From positions 1 to 36,852 of the forward strand of contig CANNCS010000032.1 of NCBI GenBank assembly GCA_947503115.1: a DNA stretch of 36,852 nt, read 5' to 3'. Each line of letters opens with the position of its first letter. Position 1 is the first letter of the stretch. Both the position numbers and the translations under genes were made by a program. The stretch is from an uncultured Marivita sp. GTDB taxonomy: Bacteria; Pseudomonadota; Alphaproteobacteria; Rhodobacterales; Rhodobacteraceae. This document shows, one piece after another, positions 24,495 through 35,089 of this stretch. Below the pieces are notes generated by a model. The model was not told where the DNA came from, ran no database searches, and saw nothing but the letters and a program-made list of their open reading frames with translations.

Positions 24495-24605
24495 AGTATT
24501 CTTTGGTTATTGGAAATATAGATCACCGCGCTCTTTTAATTCAATTTCCAGAATATATCCAGAGTGCCTATCTCCTGTCTAAGATGTTCAGAAGGAGAAA
24601 GACAA
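24495..24605. promoter_or_regulatory. oxyR-like/peroxiredoxin divergent promoter region
   Basis: AT-rich region between the divergent regulator and peroxiredoxin genes. TGGAAAT (24511-24517) and ATTTCCA (24544-24550) form inverted half-sites 26 bases apart, plausible for a LysR-type tetramer. The peroxiredoxin ribosome binding site AGAAGGAG ends at 24597, eight bases before its ATG. Confidence 0.45.
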
Positions 24606-25268
24606 ATGAACGCGGTCACCGATATCACATCCCAAGCTCAGGTTGCGCTGCCCCGCCTTAACGAACCCGCGCCGGCGTTCGATGCGTTGACCACACACGG
24701 TCAGAAAGCTCTGGCAGATTATCAAGGCAAATGGTTGATCCTCTTTTCGCATCCCGCCGACTTCACCCCAGTTTGCACGACGGAATTCATGGCATTCGCC
24801 CGTCGTGCCGATGATTTCGCTGCGCTGAATACGGAGCTGCTTGGCCTGTCCATTGATAGCCATTACGCCCACATCGCATGGGTTCGGTCGATCAAGGAAA
24901 GCTTTGGCGTTGACGTCCGTTTCCCGATCATTGCAGATCTCGACATGAAGGTGGCGCAAGCCTACGGCATGATCCAGCCAGGAGCATCAGACACGCAAGC
25001 CGTGCGTGCGACTTTCATTATCGATCCCGAAGGTACCTTGCGGGCGATGGTGTATTACCCAATGACCAATGGCCGCTCGATTGATGAGTTTTATCGTTTG
25101 ATCCAAGCGCTTCAGGCCGCAGACACCCACAAGATCGCGACGCCCGAGAATTGGATGCCGGGTCAAGACGTGATCGTACCGACCCCGCAAACAACTGACG
25201 CCGCCGAGGCGCGTTTGTCTGAAGGGTATGACACCAAGGATTGGTATTTCTCGACGAAGGCGCTCTGA
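24606..25268 (+). CDS. Peroxiredoxin, 1-Cys (Prx6-like) type
   Basis: A thiol peroxidase of 220 residues that reduces hydrogen peroxide or organic hydroperoxides in the cytoplasm. The active site is SHPADFTPVCTTEF with peroxidatic C57. The Prx6-type C-terminal extension is present (ENWMPGQDVIVPTP, ending KDWYFSTKAL). C57 is the only cysteine in the protein, and the tail positions that often carry cysteines read DTKDWYFS here. It must therefore be regenerated by an external thiol. ATG 24606 with AGAAGGAG is clearly the start; a GTG at 24564 is only an upstream extension. Control by the divergent OxyR-like protein is likely. Confidence 0.92.
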   Translation: MNAVTDITSQAQVALPRLNEPAPAFDALTTHGQKALADYQGKWLILFSHPADFTPVCTTEFMAFARRADDFAALNTELLGLSIDSHYAHIAWVRSIKESFGVDVRFPIIADLDMKVAQAYGMIQPGASDTQAVRATFIIDPEGTLRAMVYYPMTNGRSIDEFYRLIQALQAADTHKIATPENWMPGQDVIVPTPQTTDAAEARLSEGYDTKDWYFSTKAL

Positions 25269-25321: not shown

Positions 25322-25798
25322 TCAGCCAGATGACGATTGGACCGAACAGGACCCCGGAAGGTCAGGTCGCATCGCAAGCAGGTCGATCAGCCCGCAATTG
25401 CCGCGTACCAAGTCTTCAAGCGTTACCATGTCCAACTCGTGATAAAATGCCTCAAGCGCTCTGACGACATAGGAGCGCAGACGACATGTCGAGGCTAGTG
25501 GGCAAGTGTTGCGGACTTCGTCGAAGCATTCGGCAAAAGGGATTTCGGTCTCGAAAATTCGAAATACAGCTCCAATCGAGATTCGATTGGCCGGTTTTGC
25601 AAGCCGGATGCCCCCGGTGCGTCCTCTAAGTGTTTCAAGATAACCTTCGGCCTGAAGCTGCTGAACGACACGCGCAACGTGATTGGCAGAGGCATTGCAG
25701 CGATCCGCAATGTCGGAAGTCCGCACCAGTTGTTCGTCGTTGACGGCACAGAACATTAGGGTGCGCGCGGCAAGATTGGTTCGGGTCGTCAGACGCAT
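25322..25798 (-). CDS. Rrf2-family regulator, NsrR-like with three cysteines
   Basis: A 158-residue Rrf2 regulator. The winged helix is at the N-terminus (LVRTSDIADRCNASANHVAR, then LRGRTGGIRLA). A cluster-binding loop contains C91, C99 and C105 (AECFDEVRNTCPLASTCRL), the three-cysteine pattern of NsrR-type nitric-oxide sensors that hold an Fe-S cluster; the CX5C spacing matches. AAGGAAA before the start is a good ribosome binding site. It is divergent from cydDCAB, which encodes a nitric-oxide- and sulfide-tolerant oxidase, so it likely regulates that cluster. A different signal (iron, sulfide, redox) cannot be excluded. Confidence 0.85.
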   Translation of the reverse strand: MRLTTRTNLAARTLMFCAVNDEQLVRTSDIADRCNASANHVARVVQQLQAEGYLETLRGRTGGIRLAKPANRISIGAVFRIFETEIPFAECFDEVRNTCPLASTCRLRSYVVRALEAFYHELDMVTLEDLVRGNCGLIDLLAMRPDLPGSCSVQSSSG

Positions 25799-25850: not shown

Positions 25851-25864
25851 TTGATCCAGATCAC
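25851..25864 (+). promoter_or_regulatory. FNR/FnrL-like box upstream of cydD
   Basis: TTGAT-CCAG-ATCAC matches the FNR/Anr consensus TTGAT-N4-ATCAA at nine of ten positions. It ends 56 bases before the cydD start, between the divergent Rrf2 gene and cydD, and suggests oxygen-responsive control. Confidence 0.65.
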
Positions 25865-25920: not shown

Positions 25921-27552
25921 ATGAACCCTCCTGAAAAGCCAAAGAAACTTGCGCCGCCAACTGCCGGGTTCGGCGCGGTTTTGTCCATTTTCGTAAGCCT
26001 AATGTGGCTTGCACAGGCTTACGTGATTGCGGGCGTTCTTGCGGCCCTGTTGTCTGGTTCGGCTGTTGACGTCTGGGGCGTCTCGCTCACATTCTTGGGC
26101 CTTGGCATTGCGCGGGCTTTATTGAACCAGCGGGCTCAGGCAGCGCTGACTCGGACGGCAGAGTGTCATATCCAAAAGTTGCGCGAAGAAATCATCGCCA
26201 GGGAAGCCACTACAGATGAGGTCTCCAGCTTTGGCGGTGCCGGTTCAATTGCGGCGCTAACAACTGAGAAACTCGACGCAGTTCGTCCCTTTCTGCTGCG
26301 CTATGCCCCTGCTCGATTGCGGGTCATGGTTGTGCCTCTGATCATTCTCACAATTACGGCATGGCACAGTTGGGCCGCGGCGGTTGTCCTTATAGCAGCA
26401 GGGCCGTTGATCCCTGTGTTCATGGCATTGGTCGGTTGGGCCGCGAAAGAAGCCAGCGCGCGACAGATGGTCGAAATCGGGTCTCTCAATGATCTGCTCG
26501 CAGATCGGTTGGCGGCACTCGCTGACCTGACTTTAATCGGGGCTGGTCCCCAAGTCATACAAGGGTTTGAGACGGCGTCGGATACACTTCGGCGAAAAAC
26601 GATGGCAGTCCTGCGAATTGCTTTTCTGTCGTCCACGGTACTCGAGCTTTTCTCGGCACTTGGCGTGGCGATGATTGCCGTTTGGGTCGGATTCGCACTG
26701 TTGGGTGAAATCACCTGGGGGACGTGGGGCGCGCCGTTGACGCCTTTCGCCGGAATTTATCTGCTTTTACTGGCACCAGATTTTTTCCAGCCTTTACGTG
26801 ATTTGGCAGCCGCATGGCACGATAAGTCCGCTGCGGATGCAGTGCAGGAAGAGCTTGTGTCGTGGCGGTCGCATGCCCGAAAGACAATGCTGGGAAAAGG
26901 TGCGAGTGCACCCGCAGTTGCCTTTGACAGCTTGATGCTACGGGGAGTGGAAGTTGAGCACGCGGACCGGACGCTGCGCTATCCGAACCTCAAGATCCAG
27001 TCGGGTGATTGCTTCGCCATTGTCGGTCCGAGCGGTGTTGGTAAAACCACATTGTTGCGGGTGATCGCGGGGTTGGAGCAACCGACGCGCGGGACGGTTA
27101 CGGTGAATGACGCGCGTGTCACGGATGCATCTGTTGATTCTTGGCGCGCTTCCTTGGGCTGGATGCCGCAAACGCCAAGGTTTTTAGGTCGTAGCTTGCG
27201 GCACAATATCGGCTTCGGTGCCGAATTGGATGCTGAGGTTCTTCGGCTCGCGCAGGTTTCCCCGGTTCTATCCACTTTGCCGGCTAAGGAGCTGACACAG
27301 CTGGGGGAAACCGGCGCAGGCCTCTCTGGGGGCGAGGCGCGCCGAGTGATGTTGGCGCGCGCACTGCATCGCGGCCCAGCAGTACTCCTTGTGGATGAGC
27401 CGACAGCCGATCTCGATGCGGACACTGCCAGAGATATCATCGACGCCCTGCTAAGCTATGTTGCCGGCGGAGGGACATTGATCACCACGACACACGATCC
27501 GCGTCTGATGAACCAAATGCAAAAAATCATCCAGCTGGAAGCCGAGGCATGA
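25921..27552 (+). CDS. cydD: CydD, heterodimeric thiol-reductant ABC exporter subunit
   Basis: CydDC pumps cysteine and/or glutathione to the periplasm and is needed for cytochrome bd assembly. This 543-residue protein has an N-terminal membrane domain (about 15-300) closing with the CydD hallmark LAPDFFQPLRDLAAAWHD (284-301), then a nucleotide-binding domain. Walker A is GPSGVGKTT (369-377), the signature is LSGGE (468-472) and Walker B is LLVDEP (489-494). It overlaps cydC by 4 bases (ATGA at 27549). An FNR-like box lies upstream. Confidence 0.95.
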   Translation: MNPPEKPKKLAPPTAGFGAVLSIFVSLMWLAQAYVIAGVLAALLSGSAVDVWGVSLTFLGLGIARALLNQRAQAALTRTAECHIQKLREEIIAREATTDEVSSFGGAGSIAALTTEKLDAVRPFLLRYAPARLRVMVVPLIILTITAWHSWAAAVVLIAAGPLIPVFMALVGWAAKEASARQMVEIGSLNDLLADRLAALADLTLIGAGPQVIQGFETASDTLRRKTMAVLRIAFLSSTVLELFSALGVAMIAVWVGFALLGEITWGTWGAPLTPFAGIYLLLLAPDFFQPLRDLAAAWHDKSAADAVQEELVSWRSHARKTMLGKGASAPAVAFDSLMLRGVEVEHADRTLRYPNLKIQSGDCFAIVGPSGVGKTTLLRVIAGLEQPTRGTVTVNDARVTDASVDSWRASLGWMPQTPRFLGRSLRHNIGFGAELDAEVLRLAQVSPVLSTLPAKELTQLGETGAGLSGGEARRVMLARALHRGPAVLLVDEPTADLDADTARDIIDALLSYVAGGGTLITTTHDPRLMNQMQKIIQLEAEA

Positions 27553-29201
27553 GATCATTGTTTCAGATCATCCGCGTGCTTCTGGCTGGGGAACGCCGCG
27601 CCTATGCCCAAGGTATGGCGTTGTCTGCGATAGTTTTAGTCATGGGGGTCGCTCTTCTGGCGTTGTCGGGGTGGTTTATCACTGCCGCTGCTGCGGCTGG
27701 GATGATCGGATTGGGGACTGTCTTTAATGTGTTTGCCCCGTCGGCAATGGTACGGTTTTTGGCCTTGGGGCGTACGGTTGCTCGGTACGGTGAACGGTTG
27801 ACGACCCACGACGCGACCTTGCGTGCATTGTCGAACCTGAGAGTGCGATTGCTGCGCGGTGTTTTGCGATCTCCTTACCGACAGATCGAACGCTTGCGCG
27901 CCAGTGTCTTTTTGAATCGCGTAACATCGGATGTCGACGCGTTGGATGGTCTGGCCTTGCGGTTGGTTCTTCCAGGGGCAGCGGGCTTGTTGGTGATCGG
28001 CATATCCGCCATTGCGCTTGCCTTGTTGGTTGACCCGTCAATCGCAGCTGTCATTCTAGGGGGCTATGGAATTGGTCCGACGGTGGTATTCTTTTGGGGG
28101 CAGAGCAGGGCGGACGCGCCATCGCGCAAGGCGCAGGCGGGTATGCAGGCGCTCCGAAGCCGGATGATTGACCTGATTGCGACACGGGAAGAGCTGATCG
28201 TTTTTGGGCAGGTGCCGTCGGCGCGAGCGAGTGTTGCAAGCGCGTCAGAATTCCAATCGAAAAACCAGTCCAGCGTTGAGCGGATCGAACGGGCGACGGG
28301 ACTTTGGATCGACCTGATGGGATGGGCTGTTGTCGCCTCTGCGCTTGGGATTGGAGCCTCTTTGGTACAAGCGGGTGAGATCACGGCAGCGCAGGCCGCG
28401 ATTGGTATTTTCGCGACTCTCGCATTGTCGGAAGCGGTCGCGCCGGTGCGCCGCGCGTTGTCGGAGATCGGCCGGATGCGTTCGGCGGCGAAACGGGTCG
28501 TGCCGATGATTGCCAACCCCCGTGCAGAAATCGGTGCTTTGCTAAATCCAGATGCCGCGTTGCTTGTCGCCAAGAAGTTTGCGGCAGCGAACAGCACATC
28601 CAATAGCCCGCTTTTTGAACCGGTTTCCTTTTACTTGGACGCGGGCGAAACCCTTGCGCTTACCGGGCGTAGTGGTTGCGGGAAATCAACGGCGTTGCTA
28701 CAGGCGGCGGGGCGGGGACTAACCTCAATCGGCGTGCTGCAATTGGGCGGCATTGAAGTTGATGCCGAGCTTCGGGCCAAGCTGGTCGCGATGGTACCTC
28801 AGAGGCATGCGCTGGTAGCGGGAACGATTGCGGAAAACCTTATGTTGGCCGCACCCGAAGCCCCGGAAACACAACTCTGGTCGGCGCTTCAAGCCGTTCA
28901 TCTGGATGAAACGATAAGGCAAAAGGGCGGGCTAGAGGCCCGGCTTGGCTTCCGGGGGGCGGGCCTGTCTGGTGGGGAAGGGCGGCGATTGGTTCTGGCC
29001 CGGGCGCTGCTGAGAAAGCCGAGCCTTCTTTTGTTGGATGAACCGACCGAAGGTCTTGATGCGCCCTTGGCGAAACTGGTGCTTGAAGGCATCAGGACAG
29101 CATTGCCCGATGCTGCGATTCTGATGGCAGCGCACCGTCCGGAAGAGATCGCGTTTGCGGATCGGATCGTGCCTCTGAATCCGGCAGTGCTGATCCCGTA
29201 G
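27549..29201 (+). CDS. cydC: CydC, heterodimeric thiol-reductant ABC exporter subunit
   Basis: Partner of CydD, 550 residues. The membrane domain starts with ALLALSGWFITAAAAAG and VFNVFAPSAMVRFLALGRT, typical of CydC, followed by RYGERLTTHDATLRAL. Walker A is GRSGCGKST (373-381), the signature is LSGGE (473-477) and Walker B is LLLLDEP (493-499). Both half-sites look intact. A 120-base gap with an FNR box and repeated operator-like motifs separates it from cydA, so cydAB may have its own promoter. Confidence 0.95.
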   Translation: MRSLFQIIRVLLAGERRAYAQGMALSAIVLVMGVALLALSGWFITAAAAAGMIGLGTVFNVFAPSAMVRFLALGRTVARYGERLTTHDATLRALSNLRVRLLRGVLRSPYRQIERLRASVFLNRVTSDVDALDGLALRLVLPGAAGLLVIGISAIALALLVDPSIAAVILGGYGIGPTVVFFWGQSRADAPSRKAQAGMQALRSRMIDLIATREELIVFGQVPSARASVASASEFQSKNQSSVERIERATGLWIDLMGWAVVASALGIGASLVQAGEITAAQAAIGIFATLALSEAVAPVRRALSEIGRMRSAAKRVVPMIANPRAEIGALLNPDAALLVAKKFAAANSTSNSPLFEPVSFYLDAGETLALTGRSGCGKSTALLQAAGRGLTSIGVLQLGGIEVDAELRAKLVAMVPQRHALVAGTIAENLMLAAPEAPETQLWSALQAVHLDETIRQKGGLEARLGFRGAGLSGGEGRRLVLARALLRKPSLLLLDEPTEGLDAPLAKLVLEGIRTALPDAAILMAAHRPEEIAFADRIVPLNPAVLIP

Positions 29202-29204
29202 TTT

Positions 29205-29292
29205 AATCCGCATCTTTGATGTCAGTTTTTGACTTGGATCAAGTCACACATTTCGGAATCGGCATATGTGAAGATAATCCGCATTACTGATG
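29205..29292 (+). repeat. Two copies of a 17-base motif, AATCCGCAT-N3-TGATG
   Basis: AATCCGCAT-CTT-TGATG (29205-29221) and AATCCGCAT-TAC-TGATG (29276-29292) are 71 bases apart and agree at 14 of 17 positions; they differ only inside the 3-base spacer. They bracket the FNR box at 29229-29242. I do not recognise the motif. It is a candidate operator pair for a cluster regulator such as the adjacent Rrf2 protein. Confidence 0.55.
29229..29242 (+). promoter_or_regulatory. FNR/FnrL-like box upstream of cydA
   Basis: TTGAC-TTGG-ATCAA matches TTGAT-N4-ATCAA at nine of ten positions and lies 79 bases before the cydA ATG. It is well placed for an FNR-type activator controlling cydAB at low oxygen. 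Confidence 0.75.
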
Positions 29293-29300
29293 CGAATTAT
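29274..29300 (+). promoter_or_regulatory. Palindrome ATAATCCGCAT-N5-ATGCGAATTAT
   Basis: Eleven-base arms with one mismatch around a 5-base centre, just before the cydA ribosome binding site (AGGAG, 29311-29315). It extends the second copy of the 17-base repeat and would block transcription if bound by a repressor. Confidence 0.6.
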
Positions 29301-29321
29301 TGTTCATTCAAGGAGTTCACC

Positions 29322-30935
29322 ATGGAGATCGGGTTGGTCGAGCTGTCGCGCATGCAATTTGCGCTTACAGCGATGTATCACTTTCTCTTCGTGCCGCTGA
29401 CGTTGGGTTTGTCGATCCTCGTAGCGATCATGGAGACCGTCTACGTCATGACGAACCGCCCCATCTGGCGGCAGATGACGAAATTCTGGGGCACATTGTT
29501 CGGAATCAACTTTGTGCTGGGCGTCGCCACGGGCATCACGATGGAATTCCAGTTCGGCATGAACTGGAGTTATTACAGCCACTATGTCGGTGACATTTTC
29601 GGTGCGCCGCTTGCCATCGAAGGTTTGATGGCCTTCTTCCTAGAGGCCACATTCGTAGGCCTGTTTTTCTTTGGCTGGGACAAGCTGAGCAAGGTTCAAC
29701 ACATGGTGGTGGCCTGGCTGGTCGCGATCGGGTCGAACTTTTCGGCTTTGTGGATTCTGATCGCCAATGGCTGGATGCAGAATCCGGTCGGGGCTGAATT
29801 CAATCCCGATACCATGCGGATGGAGATGACGTCGTTCTTTGACGTGCTTTTCAACGAAGTGGCGCAGGCGAAGTTCGTGCACACAGTGTCCGCTGGATAT
29901 GTCACGGCATCGGTTTTCGTGCTGGGTGTTTCGGCGCTCTATCTCATTCAGAACAAACACAAGGACTTGGCCCGCCGGTCCATTGCGGTTGCTTCGGCCT
30001 TTGGCCTAGCCGCCGCATTGTCTGTCGTCGTTCTGGGGGATGAGTCCGGCTATTCAGCAAGCCACACGCAGAAAATGAAGCTCGCTGCGATTGAAGCCAT
30101 GTGGGAAACCCACGACGCGCCCGCACCGTTTACGGCAATCGGCTTTCCCGATCAGGAAGCGCGTGAGACCCATTATGCGGTCGAAATCCCTTGGGCGATG
30201 GGTCTGATCGGCACCCGTAGCCTGACCCAGGAGATTCCCGGCATCAACGATCTGGTTGCGGAATCCGAAGACCGCATTCGGGAAGGCCTAATCGCCTACG
30301 ACGCTCTTATGACGATCCGTGAGCAGCGTGAGGCGACACCTCAGGCAGTGCGAGACACATTCGAGATGCATTCCGAGAATCTGGGTTTTGCCCTGCTTCT
30401 CAAGCGTTATGTCGATGATCCGCGTGATGCGACGGAAGAGCAAATCATGATGGCCGCCGATGATACGGTTCCCGGTGTGGCGCCGCTTTTCTGGGCATTC
30501 CGGCTCATGGTGGCGCTTGGTTTCAGCTTTATCGCGGTGATGGCCTATTTCTTCTACCGCGCCTCGTTCCGGAACATGCAATTCCCGCGCTGGTCGCTTT
30601 ACGCCGCCGTCGCCATCATTCCAACACCGTGGATCGCGGCAGAGTTAGGATGGTTCGTGGCCGAGTTTGGTCGCCAGCCCTGGACTGTGGACGGTGTGCT
30701 CCCGACAGCTCTCAGCGCATCGCACCTGAGCATCGCTGATCTGCTGATCACGCTGGCGGGGTTCTTGATATTCTATTCGGTTCTCTTCGTGATCGAGGTC
30801 AGCCTGATGGTGAAATACATCCGCAAGGGCCCGTTCCAGGACGTCGAAGAAACCAATGCCTGGCAGGAACGGCATGAGGCGCGACTGCGCTCCGAGACAC
30901 CCGCTCCGACCCTTGACGCTACACCTGCGGAGTAA
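29322..30935 (+). CDS. cydA: Cytochrome bd ubiquinol oxidase subunit I, long Q-loop type
   Basis: Main subunit of cytochrome bd, which oxidises quinol and reduces oxygen to water in the inner membrane. It has 537 residues from ATG 29322 with AGGAG upstream; an earlier in-frame start at 29229 lies within the promoter. Conserved residues sit one position after their E. coli numbers: H20 (heme b595), E100, E108, H187 (b558) and, in the Q-loop, K253 and E258. M396 is the second b558 ligand and GRQPW lies at 450-454. The long Q-loop (about 240-390) marks the E. coli-like bd-I type rather than the short CIO type. cydB follows after 5 bases. Confidence 0.97.
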   Translation: MEIGLVELSRMQFALTAMYHFLFVPLTLGLSILVAIMETVYVMTNRPIWRQMTKFWGTLFGINFVLGVATGITMEFQFGMNWSYYSHYVGDIFGAPLAIEGLMAFFLEATFVGLFFFGWDKLSKVQHMVVAWLVAIGSNFSALWILIANGWMQNPVGAEFNPDTMRMEMTSFFDVLFNEVAQAKFVHTVSAGYVTASVFVLGVSALYLIQNKHKDLARRSIAVASAFGLAAALSVVVLGDESGYSASHTQKMKLAAIEAMWETHDAPAPFTAIGFPDQEARETHYAVEIPWAMGLIGTRSLTQEIPGINDLVAESEDRIREGLIAYDALMTIREQREATPQAVRDTFEMHSENLGFALLLKRYVDDPRDATEEQIMMAADDTVPGVAPLFWAFRLMVALGFSFIAVMAYFFYRASFRNMQFPRWSLYAAVAIIPTPWIAAELGWFVAEFGRQPWTVDGVLPTALSASHLSIADLLITLAGFLIFYSVLFVIEVSLMVKYIRKGPFQDVEETNAWQERHEARLRSETPAPTLDATPAE

Positions 30936-30940
30936 GACAG

Positions 30941-32101
30941 ATGATCCTTTTTGAATTGATCGAATACGATATCCTTCGCGTGATCTGGTGGGCGCTGCTA
31001 GGCGTGCTACTGATTGGATTTGCCCTGACCGACGGGTTCGACATGGGGGTCGGCGCACTGCTGCCTTTTGTCGCCAAGACCGATGTGGAACGCCGTGTGG
31101 CGATAAACACGGTCGGCCCGGTCTGGGAAGGCAACCAAGTGTGGTTCATCCTTGGTGGCGGCGCGATCTTTGCCGCTTGGCCGCCGCTCTATGCTGTTAG
31201 CTTCTCAGGCTTCTATCTTGCGATGTTCGTGGTTCTGGCCGCTTTCATCGTCCGCCCGGTGGCGTTCAAGTACCGATCCAAGCGGGATGACGCCACATGG
31301 CGCACCCGTTGGGACTGGGCGCTGTTTGCTGGTGGGGCTGTGCCAGCGCTTCTGTTCGGCGTCGCCGTTGGCAACGTGCTTTTGGGTGTTCCATTCTACC
31401 TGACTGAAGACCTGATGCCGATGTATCCAGGCAATTTTGCCATCAAATTCATTGGTCTCTTGCGCCCCTTCGCGCTCCTGGCGGGTGTTGTCTCGCTTTC
31501 GATGCTTTTGATGCATGGAGCGGCTTGGTTGTCCTTGAAGGCCGAAGGCGTAGTTGCAGAACGCGCGCGCTCTATCGGTGTCAAAGCGGGCATCGTTGCT
31601 GCTGCGGGCTATGCGCTGGCGGGTCTGTGGTTGGCCTTTGGAGTTGATGGCTTTGCATTGGGCGAGGTCGTGGCCAATGGCCCGTCAAACCCGCTCTATT
31701 CCGAAGTCACCCGGGGCGGGTCATGGCTGACGGCTTATTCAGACCGTCCGTGGATCGTGGCTGCACCAGCCATGGGGTTTGTCGGGATCGCACTGGCGGT
31801 GATGGGCCTGAAAGCAGGTCGCGAGGTGTCGACATTGCTCTGGTCGAAGTTGGGCATCCTTGGCATCATCTCTTCCGTTGGGTTGACGATGTTCCCGTTC
31901 ATCCTGCCCTCAACCCTTGATCCGAACAGCTCGCTTACCGTGTGGGACTCCTCGTCCTCGCACCAGACGTTGTTCATCATGCTGGTGGTCACCGCGATCT
32001 TTATGCCGCTGATCCTGATGTACACAGCATGGGTCTACAAAGTGCTATGGGGCAAAGTCACCGAAGCGCAAGTCACTGAAAACGCTGACACAGTTTACTG
32101 A
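30941..32101 (+). CDS. cydB: Cytochrome bd ubiquinol oxidase subunit II
   Basis: Structural partner of CydA, 386 residues, about eight membrane helices. Diagnostic motifs are DGFDMGVGALLPFV near residue 31, GPVWEGNQVWFILGGGA, and DSSSSHQTLFIML near the C-terminus. It starts five bases after cydA and its stop TGA (32099-32101) shares a base with an ATG at 32101. That ATG is in frame with the dsrE gene, but the true dsrE start is probably 32113. Confidence 0.96.
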   Translation: MILFELIEYDILRVIWWALLGVLLIGFALTDGFDMGVGALLPFVAKTDVERRVAINTVGPVWEGNQVWFILGGGAIFAAWPPLYAVSFSGFYLAMFVVLAAFIVRPVAFKYRSKRDDATWRTRWDWALFAGGAVPALLFGVAVGNVLLGVPFYLTEDLMPMYPGNFAIKFIGLLRPFALLAGVVSLSMLLMHGAAWLSLKAEGVVAERARSIGVKAGIVAAAGYALAGLWLAFGVDGFALGEVVANGPSNPLYSEVTRGGSWLTAYSDRPWIVAAPAMGFVGIALAVMGLKAGREVSTLLWSKLGILGIISSVGLTMFPFILPSTLDPNSSLTVWDSSSSHQTLFIMLVVTAIFMPLILMYTAWVYKVLWGKVTEAQVTENADTVY

Positions 32102-32112
32102 TGGAGACGACA

Positions 32113-32574
32113 ATGAAACGTATCGCAACAGCGCTGGCCGCAATTGCAATTGCCACCGCCAGTTTGGCTACAACGTCCCCAGCGCTGGCTCAGGATGACG
32201 ACAAGCCCGGTCTATTTGTTAACCTGACGACCGACGACACATGGTCCGCCGCGAAGGCAATCATGTTCGCCCATGAAAAGGCGCTCAAGAACGGGCATGA
32301 ACCGGTCGCAATTTGGCTGAACGTGCGGGCGGTCTATCTCGCTGACAAAAAGCGCCCCAGCCACATTCACGGTCTCATGGCCGAGAACGGCACATCAATC
32401 CAAGATATGCTGACGGCATTCATCGCGGACGGTGGGCAAGTGATCATGTGCAGCGCCTGTTCCAAAGCCGCTGGATTGACCGAAGCCGACTACATCGACG
32501 GCGTGACCATGGGAACATGGCCCGTTGTCGAGGGTCTGCTGTTCGATCCCGATGTCAAAACCCTCGCTTGGTAA
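32113..32574 (+). CDS. Exported DsrE-family sulfur-relay protein
   Basis: A DsrE/F-fold protein; family members carry or transfer sulfane sulfur on cysteine. I chose ATG 32113 (153 residues, GGAG at 32103-32106) over ATG 32101. It begins with a clear Sec signal (MKRIATALAAIAIATA, cleavage after ALA at 26), so the mature protein should be periplasmic. The mature part has LFVNLTTDD, HEPVAIWLNVRAV and the DsrE-type cysteine motif VIMCSACSKAAGL (C113, C116). It sits between cydB and cydX, unusual for a cyd operon, and implies a link between sulfur metabolism and cytochrome bd. Confidence 0.88.
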   Translation: MKRIATALAAIAIATASLATTSPALAQDDDKPGLFVNLTTDDTWSAAKAIMFAHEKALKNGHEPVAIWLNVRAVYLADKKRPSHIHGLMAENGTSIQDMLTAFIADGGQVIMCSACSKAAGLTEADYIDGVTMGTWPVVEGLLFDPDVKTLAW

Positions 32575-32592
32575 CCCGAAAGGATCAACACC

Positions 32593-32730
32593 ATGTGGTA
32601 TTTCGCTTGGCTTCTTGGACTTCCCCTTGCTGCTCTGTTCGCCGTTCTCAATGCGATCTGGCTTGAGATGCGCACAGACGCTTGTTTCTCGGACGAAGGC
32701 GAGTGTCCGATGGGTGAACACACCCACTGA
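32593..32730 (+). CDS. cydX: CydX, small subunit of cytochrome bd, with a Cys/His tail
   Basis: A 45-residue membrane protein starting MWYFAWLLGLPLAALFAVLN, which matches the CydX/YbgT signature (E. coli MWYFAWILG). CydX stabilises the hemes of cytochrome bd-I. GAAAGGA (32578-32584) precedes the ATG by eight bases. A single helix (about 3-25) is followed by a hydrophilic tail, EMRTDACFSDEGECPMGEHTH, that contains C31, C38, H43 and H45. E. coli CydX is about 37 residues and I know of no such tail there. It is separated from cydB by the dsrE gene. The helix match makes the call strong; the function of the tail is unknown. Confidence 0.9.
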   Translation: MWYFAWLLGLPLAALFAVLNAIWLEMRTDACFSDEGECPMGEHTH

Positions 32731-32732
32731 AT

Positions 32733-32764
32733 GACCGGGGGTCTTGTTCCTTCCTCCCCCAGTC
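32733..32764 (+). terminator. Stem-loop after cydX
   Basis: GAC-C-GGGGG pairs with CCCCC-A-GTC around a 14-base loop, three bases past the cydX stop. There is no T-run, so it is more likely a processing or stability hairpin within the cluster than a full terminator. Confidence 0.45.
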
Positions 32765-32842
32765 CGGCGCGGGCCCCGTTATGGCAAGGGGTTCGCGCCT
32801 CAAAACTGCTCAAGTCATCGAACTCTGATTAGGATTTTAGAC

Positions 32843-33280
32843 ATGAAAACGATCATTCTCGCAGCCTGCGCCGCGATAACTCTGACCGGAGCGACCTTTG
32901 CTCAAGAGGCTCCCGATACACTCGTGACAATTTTGACTGCGCCGGAACCGCAGACCCAGTTAATGGCGATGGTTTTGGCTATGCAAGCTGCCCAACAGGG
33001 GGCTGCGCCACATATCCTTTTGTGTGGGCCAGCAGGCGACATCGCACTGAAAGATGCGCCGGAATCGGCCACAGCTCCGCAACCGCCGCGTGACATGAGC
33101 CCGAAAGGTTTGCTTGGCAAGATTGCCGAGATACCCAACGCCAAGGTCGAAGTTTGCGCAATCTATCTGCCGGGCAAGGGCCTCATGGCTGATGTGTTGA
33201 TGGACGGTGTCACTGTTGCACAGCCACCGGCTATGGCTGCGGCCATGATCGCTCCGAACGCGCGGATCGCGAGCTACTGA
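32843..33280 (+). CDS. Second exported DsrE-like protein
   Basis: A 145-residue protein with a Sec signal (MKTIILAACAAITLTGATFA, cleavage after A20) and a DsrE-like mature domain: TLVTILTAPEPQTQLMAMVLAMQAAQQG, then ILLCGPAGDIAL (C61) and KVEVCAIYLPGKGL (C105). It is more divergent from typical DsrE than the first protein and lacks the CxxC motif; its two cysteines are in separate segments. AGGA at 32831-32834 precedes the ATG. It lies in the same cluster between cydX and the SQR-like gene and may work with the first DsrE protein on periplasmic sulfane sulfur. Confidence 0.78.
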   Translation: MKTIILAACAAITLTGATFAQEAPDTLVTILTAPEPQTQLMAMVLAMQAAQQGAAPHILLCGPAGDIALKDAPESATAPQPPRDMSPKGLLGKIAEIPNAKVEVCAIYLPGKGLMADVLMDGVTVAQPPAMAAAMIAPNARIASY

Positions 33281-33287
33281 TCCACTT

Positions 33288-33334
33288 CCGCCCGAAGTGC
33301 GGCGCGCCCTGATCGATCTTCGGGGCGGGCTTTT
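33288..33334 (+). terminator. Hairpin with T-run before the SQR-like gene
   Basis: CCGCCCGAAG (33288-33297) pairs with CTTCGGG-g-CGG (33318-33328, one bulged G), followed by GGCTTTTG. It looks like an intrinsic terminator eight bases past the second dsrE-like stop. The SQR-like gene lies 90 bases further on, so it may have its own promoter or be expressed by read-through. Confidence 0.55.
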
Positions 33335-33419
33335 GTTGATGGGTTTGGCGCATATCAATTCCATCCCCATCAGAATTCCACATGCGAAACCAAGACTGTT
33401 CATTCTTGAGGAGGACACC

Positions 33420-34730
33420 ATGACCAAACTGACGGCAACCCGGCGTCAATTCTTCGCCTATGCCGCGGGTGGCGCTGCTGCGGCAACCCTGTCCACGCCA
33501 GATGACGCCGTGGCCCAAGTAGCCACATCCGCGAAGATTGTAATCATCGGTGCAGGTGCCGGTGGTACGGCGCTGGCGAACCGTTTGGTCAACCGACTGG
33601 ACGGCGCTCAGATCACACTCATCGACCCGCGCGTCGATCACCTTTATCAACCTGGCCTTTCGCTGGTCGCAGCAGGCTTGAAGCCTGCCAATTACGTCGT
33701 TTCAAAAACAACCGACTGGCTACCTGATGACGTGACCCTGATCGCCGAGGCGGCGGCGGCCATTGATCCAGAGGCCAAACTGGTCGCGACAGCCAGCGGT
33801 CAAAAAGTCCCTTATGATTTTCTTGTCGTTGCACCAGGGCTGGTGCTGGATCACGACGCGATCGAAGGCTTCTCGCTCGACATGGTGGGGCAGAACGGCA
33901 TCGGCGCGCTGTATGCTGGGCCGCAATACGCTGCGGCAACTTGGAAAGCTGCACAATCCTACACGGAAACCGGTGGCGTCGGGTTGTTTACCCGCCCGGC
34001 AACCGAAATGAAGTGTGCCGGCGCGCCGCTTAAGCATACGTTCCTGATCGAGGACATAGCCCGCACAGCTGGTACCCGAGGCAAGCTCGACGTGCATTAC
34101 ATGTCCAACAATGACAGCCTGTTTGGTGTGCCGATCGTGTCCGAGAAGGTGCGGATGCTGTTTGGCGACCGCGGCATCTCTGCGGAGTATTCACATGTGC
34201 TTCGTGCCATTGACGCCGGAGCAAAAACCGCGACATTCGACACGCCGTCGGGCCCCGTAACCCGAGAGTTTGACTACATCCATGTCATCCCCCCGCAGCG
34301 CGCACCCGAGGTTATCCGGCAGTCCGGCCTTAGCTGGGCCGACAAGTGGACCGATCAGGGATGGGTCGAATGCGACAAGGCGACATTGCGCCATCTGCGG
34401 TATGACACGATCTGGGCGCTGGGCGATGTGGCTGGGGTGCCCAAGGGCAAGACTGCAGCTTCAGTGAAATGGCAGGTGCCCGTGGTCGAAGACGGTTTGG
34501 TTGCTGCAATCGAAGGTCGAGAGTCCACGGAGGTATATAACGGCTACACATCTTGTCCGATGATCACGCGTGTTGGTCGCGCCATGTTGGTCGAGTTCGA
34601 TTACAACAATAACCTGACCCCGTCCTTCCCGGGTATCATTGCCCCATTGGAAGAGCTTTGGATCAGCTGGTTGATGAAAGAGGTGGCTTTGAAAGCAACC
34701 TATAACGCGATGTTGCGCGGCCGCGCTTAA
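33420..34730 (+). CDS. Tat-signalled sulfide:quinone oxidoreductase-like flavoprotein (SQR/FccB family)
   Basis: A 436-residue FAD protein of the sulfide:quinone oxidoreductase/flavocytochrome-c sulfide dehydrogenase family, which oxidises sulfide to sulfane sulfur. ATG 33420 follows GAGGAGG. The N-terminus has a twin-arginine signal (TRRQFF, 7-12, hydrophobic stretch, then AVAQ), so the folded flavoprotein should be exported. FAD motif IIGAGAGG is at 42-49. Two cysteines match the catalytic pair of SQR: C199 (MKCAGAP) and C379 (TSCPMI). The ALGDVAGVPKGKTAAS segment (333-348) matches the second FAD site. No fccA cytochrome is nearby, and the cytochrome bd neighbours favour quinone as acceptor. 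Electron acceptor is inferred. Confidence 0.86.
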   Translation: MTKLTATRRQFFAYAAGGAAAATLSTPDDAVAQVATSAKIVIIGAGAGGTALANRLVNRLDGAQITLIDPRVDHLYQPGLSLVAAGLKPANYVVSKTTDWLPDDVTLIAEAAAAIDPEAKLVATASGQKVPYDFLVVAPGLVLDHDAIEGFSLDMVGQNGIGALYAGPQYAAATWKAAQSYTETGGVGLFTRPATEMKCAGAPLKHTFLIEDIARTAGTRGKLDVHYMSNNDSLFGVPIVSEKVRMLFGDRGISAEYSHVLRAIDAGAKTATFDTPSGPVTREFDYIHVIPPQRAPEVIRQSGLSWADKWTDQGWVECDKATLRHLRYDTIWALGDVAGVPKGKTAASVKWQVPVVEDGLVAAIEGRESTEVYNGYTSCPMITRVGRAMLVEFDYNNNLTPSFPGIIAPLEELWISWLMKEVALKATYNAMLRGRA

Positions 34731-34741
34731 GGAGCTTTGAC

Positions 34742-35089
34742 ATGAAAGACATGACATTTGGAACCATTTTGGCCGTCTTTGAAGAGATCTTTGGCAGAGG
34801 GCTGTTCTGGACGATGGTGGTGGCTGCGGCTCTTGTCACGGCAGCGTATATCTTTGTTCTAATCCGAGATCACAGCATCTCGTGGCGCAAATTCTTGCTT
34901 GCCCAGCTGTCGATGCCGGTCGGCGCAATTCTTGCGATTTGGTTTGTCTTGGTGATGACCAGCTCACAATTGAGCGATCTTGGTGGACCGGTCGATATCA
35001 TCGTCATCCTTGGGATTGCAGGCGCAGGCGCCATAGGAATCGCTATTCTGGTTTACACGATCCAGTCCTTGATACGTCCTAGGCAGTGA
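34742..35089 (+). CDS. Small membrane protein, possibly DUF5368
   Basis: A 115-residue protein with about three membrane helices (roughly 20-42, 52-75 and 85-110), preceded by AAGGAG, which overlaps the end of the SQR-like gene. It begins MKDMTFGTILAVFEEIFGRG and has a central VGAILAIWFVLVMTSSQLSDLGGP segment. I think it resembles the DUF5368 proteins of Rhodobacterales, but this is from memory and not certain. No cofactor ligands are obvious. Being adjacent to a monotopic or exported flavoprotein, it could anchor it or help pass electrons to quinone. The function is unknown. Confidence 0.7.
   Translation: MKDMTFGTILAVFEEIFGRGLFWTMVVAAALVTAAYIFVLIRDHSISWRKFLLAQLSMPVGAILAIWFVLVMTSSQLSDLGGPVDIIVILGIAGAGAIGIAILVYTIQSLIRPRQ

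Follow-up and report, generated by a model that had tools for sequence, protein, structure and literature searches.

Why should an operon for cytochrome bd run on into a gene for a flavoprotein of a sulfide-oxidizing type? The question is raised by the contig CANNCS010000032.1 of an uncultured Marivita sp. (Rhodobacteraceae; assembly GCA_947503115.1), whose positions 1 to 36,852 are referred to here as the window. Between 25921 and 35089 the window carries nine genes, all on the + strand and in one cluster, in the order cydD-cydC-cydA-cydB-dsrEa-cydX-dsrEb-sqrL-DUF5368; this order and its coordinates, as given in an earlier note on this DNA, were borne out. The label sqrL (SqrL for the protein) is our own and stands for the Tat-type (twin-arginine translocation), type II-like sulfide:quinone oxidoreductase (SQR). 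We found that the conserved unit is formed by the last two genes, sqrL-DUF5368, and not by the whole layout. Judging from sequence, we consider it fairly probable that this unit encodes a low-oxygen-induced, periplasm-facing SQR with its own membrane partner, linked to cytochrome bd in some lineages.

The sqrL gene (33420..34730, + strand, with the start corrected to the ATG at 33420) encodes a protein whose closest solved relative is human SQOR, matched over residues 80-475 with an E-value of 7e-60 and 206 bits. Counted along this alignment, human Cys201 and Cys379 correspond to Cys199 and Cys379 of the window SqrL, which are of catalytic type. This mapping is consistent with Ser378 and Cys379 of SQOR, which the accessible part of PMC12589024 names together with the Cys201-S-S-S-Cys379 bridge. 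A candidate loss of the second catalytic cysteine in SqrL (GDC in human SQOR, GDV here) was discarded, because human Cys379 falls in the motif YTSCP, which is kept. In order to compare SqrL within its own group, 129 distinct sequences were drawn from class, family and plasmid samples and from 80 named loci, the latter being the best of at least 588 and leaning towards close relatives. All 129 contain the catalytic-type cysteine pair, in a KCAGAP-type motif and in YTSCP; the glycines G44, G46 and G49 of the GxGxxG motif that binds flavin adenine dinucleotide (FAD) are invariant in 38 of 38 SqrL rows, and the C-terminus, where type II SQRs have membrane-attaching helices, is conserved among the SqrL rows and aligns with SQOR to the end. 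With respect to the type II SQRs (human SQOR and the bacterial SQR found beside persulfide dioxygenase, PDO, or BLH), the full-length match, the FAD motif, the Cys201/Cys379 pair and an alignable C-terminal region are in common, whereas SqrL differs in its Tat-type start, in its few other cysteines, in its DUF5368 partner and in forming a separate branch. In fact, the SqrL rows make up one side of a branch with a support of 93; only this grouping was used from the tree, in which two rows (L297 and L301) have very long branches and are probably in the wrong frame or on the wrong strand, and in which long branches may have been drawn together.

The N-terminal region of all 129 sequences carries a twin-arginine pair, followed in 117 of them by an AxA-like site, and the mean number of cysteines per core is 2.5 in SqrL as compared to 6.1 in 15 other SQRs. 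An SQR-like protein with a Tat signal had already been proposed for this cluster, and the proposal is supported by the 129 rows, every one of which begins in the Tat manner and has both SQR cysteines, as judged by pattern (in the window, export signals were judged both by eye and by pattern). We take SqrL, on these features, to be an exported branch of the type II-like SQRs. The SQR of R. capsulatus reportedly has no signal and has been assigned to the periplasmic face. The predicted location of SqrL is a new point, because the accessible part of PMC12345210 has SQR acting in the cytoplasm and flavocytochrome c sulfide dehydrogenase (FCSD) oxidizing sulfide in the periplasm. The same description would favor an ordinary, cytoplasm-facing SqrL, whose Tat-like N-terminus is unused or does not cross the membrane; however, the invariable arginine pair, the frequent AxA-like site and the scarcity of non-catalytic cysteines argue against this explanation, which we regard as highly improbable. 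As to FCSD, which according to the accessible part of PMC12345210 is a periplasmic sulfide oxidant, it is a flavoprotein of the same superfamily, but SqrL is far nearer to SQOR, with 206 bits as compared to 79 bits for flavocytochrome c. No cytochrome c gene adjoining sqrL was seen in the window or in nine plasmid regions with annotation (incomplete in its gene tables); the P. denitrificans region does contain one, at a distance of 5.6 kb after sqrL. A description of a Tat-exported SQR was not found in the accessible part of the literature searched, which excluded most subscription journals and is thus weak evidence of novelty.

SqrL is separated from other SQRs by a step in sequence identity. 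In the class sample (385 genomes), 81 genomes match SqrL at an E-value of 1e-20 or better, and 16 of the 385 do so with at least 49% identity, the next value being 42%. The SqrL clade is present in 30 of the 149 genomes of the family sample, where one further match of 42% was left uncounted, and in 10 of the 388 genomes of the phylum sample, which overlaps with that of the class and whose next match is again at 42%. Plasmids gave further matches at 43%, and a partial match of 48% in Paracoccus versutus, which was left unclassified. This distance (at most 42% for the next SQRs in genomes, and 43% or, for the partial match, 48% on plasmids) may suggest that SqrL is an exported SQR-family enzyme whose main substrate is not sulfide but a thiol, a persulfide or some comparable donor, serving the redox balance of the envelope together with DUF5368. 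Consistent with this possibility, residues specific to the clade include W306, G339, G343, S348, K350 and W351, several of them within or beside the motif GD..G.PKGKTAAS, and the neighbours of sqrL include RND pumps and cytochrome c peroxidase. On the other hand, both SQOR cysteines are present in all 129 sequences, the C-terminal region aligns with SQOR to the end, and sulfide genes adjoin sqrL in some loci, so that we judge a different main substrate unlikely. Neighbours were called by tblastn from a set list of queries, to which the named neighbours are limited. At least one among PDO, SulP, YeeE and DUF6691 was detected, at 60% identity or more, in 12 of the 129 stretches (P. aminophilus, the source of the queries, included), and a second, ordinary SQR in four. 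On plasmids of Paracoccus aminophilus and P. denitrificans the unit stands within about 10 kb of such sulfide genes, and the genome of the window contains an SQR-BLH-PDO-SulP cluster on another contig (C47).

The gene that follows sqrL (34742..35089, + strand) appears to encode its dedicated partner. The product, with three predicted transmembrane helices, belongs to DUF5368 (PF17336), which it matches with 160.6 bits against a gathering score of 25 (E-value 2e-47). Matches over the cut-off were obtained in 13 of the 385 class genomes and in 9 of the 388 phylum genomes, all of which contain SqrL and have the gene directly after sqrL. Among the named loci, DUF5368 is present in 78 of 80, and in the other two (L228 and L242) the contig stops where sqrL ends or no more than about 50 bases from that point. 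By plain tblastn it was detected in 119 of the 126 assessable rows of the 129. As to the rows missed, L043, L045 and L046 belong to genomes in which Pfam gives a match over the cut-off at that place, the gene of L066 was found in a separate search, and L044, L047 and L048 have just after sqrL a small hydrophobic open reading frame that is similar by eye. The gene also follows sqrL in the nine annotated plasmid regions, where the Cereibacter copy, annotated as a hypothetical protein, was found by tblastn; a tenth region has no annotation. Hydropathy suggests three helices, and the mean number of lysines and arginines is 3.9 in loop 1 and 0.4 in loop 2; therefore, the N-terminus and loop 2 are predicted to lie outside, in the periplasm. 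Seven residues are invariant, and five of them (E15, G18, T73, G82 and D85) belong to the N-terminus or loop 2, the others being M1 and G99. We infer that these positions fit a role in docking or in a quinone site, on the side where the exported SqrL would sit. DUF5368 was not found in the literature searched, most subscription journals being outside the search. Its constant company with sqrL is, along with the FNR-type boxes, what our analysis adds to the earlier note.

These boxes (TTGAY-N4-RTCAA) were searched from 300 bases upstream to 40 bases downstream of gene starts. Of 67 stand-alone sqrL units, 37 have a perfect box, as compared to 10 of 619 control genes of the same stretches, and in 21 of these 37 units the box centre stands 54 to 78 bases ahead of the start; with a slightly different selection of stand-alone units, 39 of 72 have a perfect box. 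When the operon is headed by cyd genes, 27 of 42 score 9 or 10 of 10, with respect to 31 of the 619 control genes. The window contains two boxes, neither assigned to a strand: TTGATCCAGATCAC (25851..25864, 9 of 10 positions), upstream of cydD, and, in the interval from cydC to cydA, TTGACTTGGATCAA (29229..29242, 10 of 10 positions). A TTG at 29229 was rejected as the start of cydA in favor of the ATG at 29322, since that TTG belongs to the box. The site agrees with the Fnr/Dnr sequence of PMC5398030, the accessible part of which does not contain the term cyd. As a separate observation, a perfect palindrome, CGCATTACTGATGCG, occupies 29280-29294, between the box and cydA, and similar words occur, inconsistently, near the gene of an Rrf2-family regulator in some relatives.

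The association of the SQR-like gene with cytochrome bd, pointed out in the earlier note, recurs: of 117 loci that could be assessed, 46 have cydA upstream and on the same strand, and 12 more loci have too little upstream sequence. By source, the link was observed in 9 of the 26 family loci that allowed an assessment (window included; the other 4 of the 30 did not), in 36 of 68 named loci, in 1 of 13 of the class sample (G252, of the same family) and in none of 10 plasmid loci; the named loci with the link include the Hyphomicrobiales Hoeflea sp. YIM 152468 and two Rhizobium sp. These counts indicate that the cyd link belongs to the family of the window and to some relatives, rather than to the whole range of SqrL. 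Placed on a tree of the 129 rows, the link requires 23 state changes, so that it arose or disappeared many times. In Paradonghicola geojensis (L224), cyd genes lie downstream of sqrL on the opposite strand. An SLAC1-type channel is commoner in cyd-linked loci (18 of 46, as compared to 9 of 71).

That the oxidase of the window is a cytochrome bd is indicated by its three subunits, whose profiles are all over the cut-off: CydA (29322..30935, + strand, start ATG preceded by aaggag) matches PF01654 with an E-value of 2e-172, CydB (30941..32101, + strand) matches PF02322 with 6e-101, and CydX (32593..32730, + strand) matches both TIGR02106 (1e-15) and PF08173. The products of cydD (25921..27552, + strand) and cydC (27549..29201, + strand) score 434.2 and 300.9 bits, narrowly under the respective NCBI equivalog cut-offs of 435 and 329, and their position before cydAB fits CydDC. 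All the parts of a cydDCAB-X operon are present in the window, and the cluster differs from such an operon in that it continues with sqrL-DUF5368 and with DsrE-like genes whose products are predicted to be exported. Nothing on this layout was found in the accessible parts of PMC9995734 and PMC6431628; the text of the latter, on alphaproteobacterial oxygen reductases, contains no mention of cydX, DsrE or a flavoprotein. Two further features of the bd genes were observed. The window CydX has a C-terminal tail with two cysteines and a terminal HTH (ACFSDEGECPMGEHTH), where a metal or redox site is possible; cysteines beyond residue 27 are present in 16 of the 53 CydX found. A second cydA-type gene is located on another contig of the same genome (G000:C105:265-1560).

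Between cydB and sqrL lie two genes for DsrE-like proteins. DsrE-a (32101..32574, + strand), with a Sec-type signal and a CSAC motif, passes the gathering score of PF02635 (27.4 vs. 22.7 bits). DsrE-b (32843..33280, + strand, start corrected to the ATG at 32843) is predicted to be exported and is weakly DsrE-like; neither Pfam nor NCBIfam gave a match to it. A comparison of its profile (22 rows) with that of DsrE-a (15 rows) gave a probability of 90.5 with 22% identity, which is supportive of kinship and not proof, the signal peptides being inside the alignment. Two cysteines of DsrE-b are kept in all 22 aligned rows, the second falling at the position of the first CSAC cysteine, and two genes of family genomes (in G388 and G488) were matched by both queries alike. 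With respect to known DsrE/DsrF-like sulfur carriers, the Pfam match of DsrE-a and the CSAC-aligned cysteine of DsrE-b are in common, whereas the predicted export signals and the presence in only part of the loci are different.

The two DsrE proteins had been assigned to an integrated module, in which thiols exported by CydDC are loaded by SqrL, persulfide is relayed by both DsrE proteins and cytochrome bd uses the quinol. The layout of the window does recur exactly, in Marivita cryptomonadis, Pacificoceanicola onchidii and Mameliella sp. CS4, and dsrEb is commoner beside cyd genes (28 of 46 linked loci as compared to 8 of 71 unlinked ones); when independent pairs were taken on the tree, the median p was 0.125 (range 0.012-1), which is no firm result, though the plain counts differ. 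However, dsrEa is inside the operon in 5 of 129 loci, namely the window, the three relatives just named and an uncultured Sulfitobacter, where dsrEb is placed after DUF5368, and dsrEb is near sqrL in 38 of 129; both genes stand away from sqrL in other genomes. For this reason, the DsrE relay is to be seen as accessory. Moreover, CydDC is required for the assembly of cytochrome bd and its substrate is disputed, the NCBI models naming it a thiol and heme exporter. Of the earlier interpretation, the link between SqrL and cyd is supported and the layout recurs in the three relatives, but the complete layout is not supported as the conserved system, and we consider the integrated module distinctly unlikely.

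Other surroundings of the dsrE genes deserve mention. In 7 of 10 genomes (L192 and L195-L200), dsrEa lies close to a gene of a conserved family (F0) that by eye has a glutamate-cysteine ligase-type look. In ten dsrEb neighbourhoods, several genes are common to L182 and L190 only, and partly to L181, and L183 and L187 share one. In L184 (G487), dsrEb adjoins a sulfide cluster with SulP, SQR, BLH, PDO, DUF6691, YeeE, a Crp-like protein, Rrf2 and a peroxiredoxin, and a distant bd-type oxidase (28-29% identical to CydA/CydB) is there too, as another joining of sulfide genes with a bd-type oxidase.

Divergent from cydD, on the - strand, the window carries a gene for an Rrf2-family regulator (25322..25798) with the three-cysteine motif CFDEVRNTCPLASTC, which is RirA- or NsrR-like and below the equivalog cut-offs. 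A three-cysteine motif is found in all 32 listed homologues of at least 48% identity, of which L112 and L207 are one record. This gene, together with the FNR-type boxes, raises the possibility that the locus is a respiratory operon responding to nitric oxide (NO) or iron, the regulator and the boxes marking a low-oxygen or NO response, with SqrL as an accompanying quinone reductase. An Rrf2 gene was detected near 31 of the 129 sqrL loci, more commonly with cyd (23 of 46 linked as compared to 7 of 71 unlinked loci), and a candidate operator, CGCAT-N5-ATGCG, reaches at least 8 of 10 in 11 of 31 regions with respect to 6% of shuffles, the word having been picked after viewing the regions. Twenty of the 31 regions are without the word, and the window as a whole has three matches where the chance mean is 3.28. 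Since no Rrf2 gene was found near 98 of the 129 loci, and the annotated neighbourhoods, whose gene tables are incomplete, contain no product name related to NO reduction, an NO- or iron-responsive operon seems to us very unlikely. On the outskirts of the cluster we noted, by eye, a peroxiredoxin-like gene upstream (24564-25268), homologues of which, at 60% identity or more, occur in 19 of the 129 sqrL stretches, and a transposase-like open reading frame at the contig end (36053-36727); no clear gene was seen downstream of DUF5368 between 35090 and 36050.

Returning to the periplasm-facing SQR with its membrane partner, a number of observations weigh against it. None of the four sulfide genes sought at 60% identity was detected in 117 of the 129 stretches. 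Upstream cyd genes are missing from 71 of the 117 assessable loci and, outside the family, the link is absent from the class and plasmid samples, though some named Hyphomicrobiales have it. No DUF5368 over the cut-off was obtained for 3 of the 16 sqrL genomes of the class (G159, G135 and G236) and 1 of the 10 of the phylum (G159), and a sub-threshold match of 20.8 bits is present in G072, a genome without sqrL. One sequence does fall into the gap that separates SqrL from other SQRs, namely the partial plasmid match of Paracoccus versutus at 48% identity. As to regulation, the best box of 18 of the 67 stand-alone units is no better than 7 of 10, and the score is 6 in the unit of P. denitrificans. 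The site may also be read by Dnr or by a different regulator of the CRP type, and the presence of a box does not show activation.

With these reservations, the two-gene unit sqrL-DUF5368 would be the core of the system and would work as follows. SqrL would fold with FAD in the cytoplasm and be exported by the Tat pathway to the periplasmic face of the inner membrane, as its signal suggests. There, the SQOR-type residues Cys199 and Cys379, present in the protein, would oxidize sulfide and pass two electrons through FAD to quinone, DUF5368 presumably docking SqrL and helping to form the quinone site. A regulator of the FNR family would turn many of the units on at low oxygen through the boxes observed. 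Cytochrome bd is known to resist sulfide; where the unit lies within a cydDCABX operon, as it does in some lineages including the window, the quinol derived from sulfide could be used by this sulfide-resistant, high-affinity oxidase. Exported DsrE proteins may act as optional carriers of sulfane sulfur. The net effect would be the removal of sulfide outside the cytoplasm while respiration continues. In its fullest form, the proposal is that SqrL and DUF5368 are the two subunits of a periplasm-facing SQR, which is exported by Tat, depends on the membrane subunit for access to quinone from the outer leaflet, is induced at low oxygen, is found on chromosomes and plasmids, and has become linked to cytochrome bd on more than one occasion, with sulfide thereby feeding a respiration that resists it; on sequence grounds, we hold this evenly poised between true and false.

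If the proposal is correct, an SQR exported by Tat and paired with a membrane protein of its own would represent an added periplasmic, quinone-linked route, and DUF5368 would gain an assigned function. Moreover, sulfide oxidation would be tied to cytochrome bd in marine Rhodobacterales.

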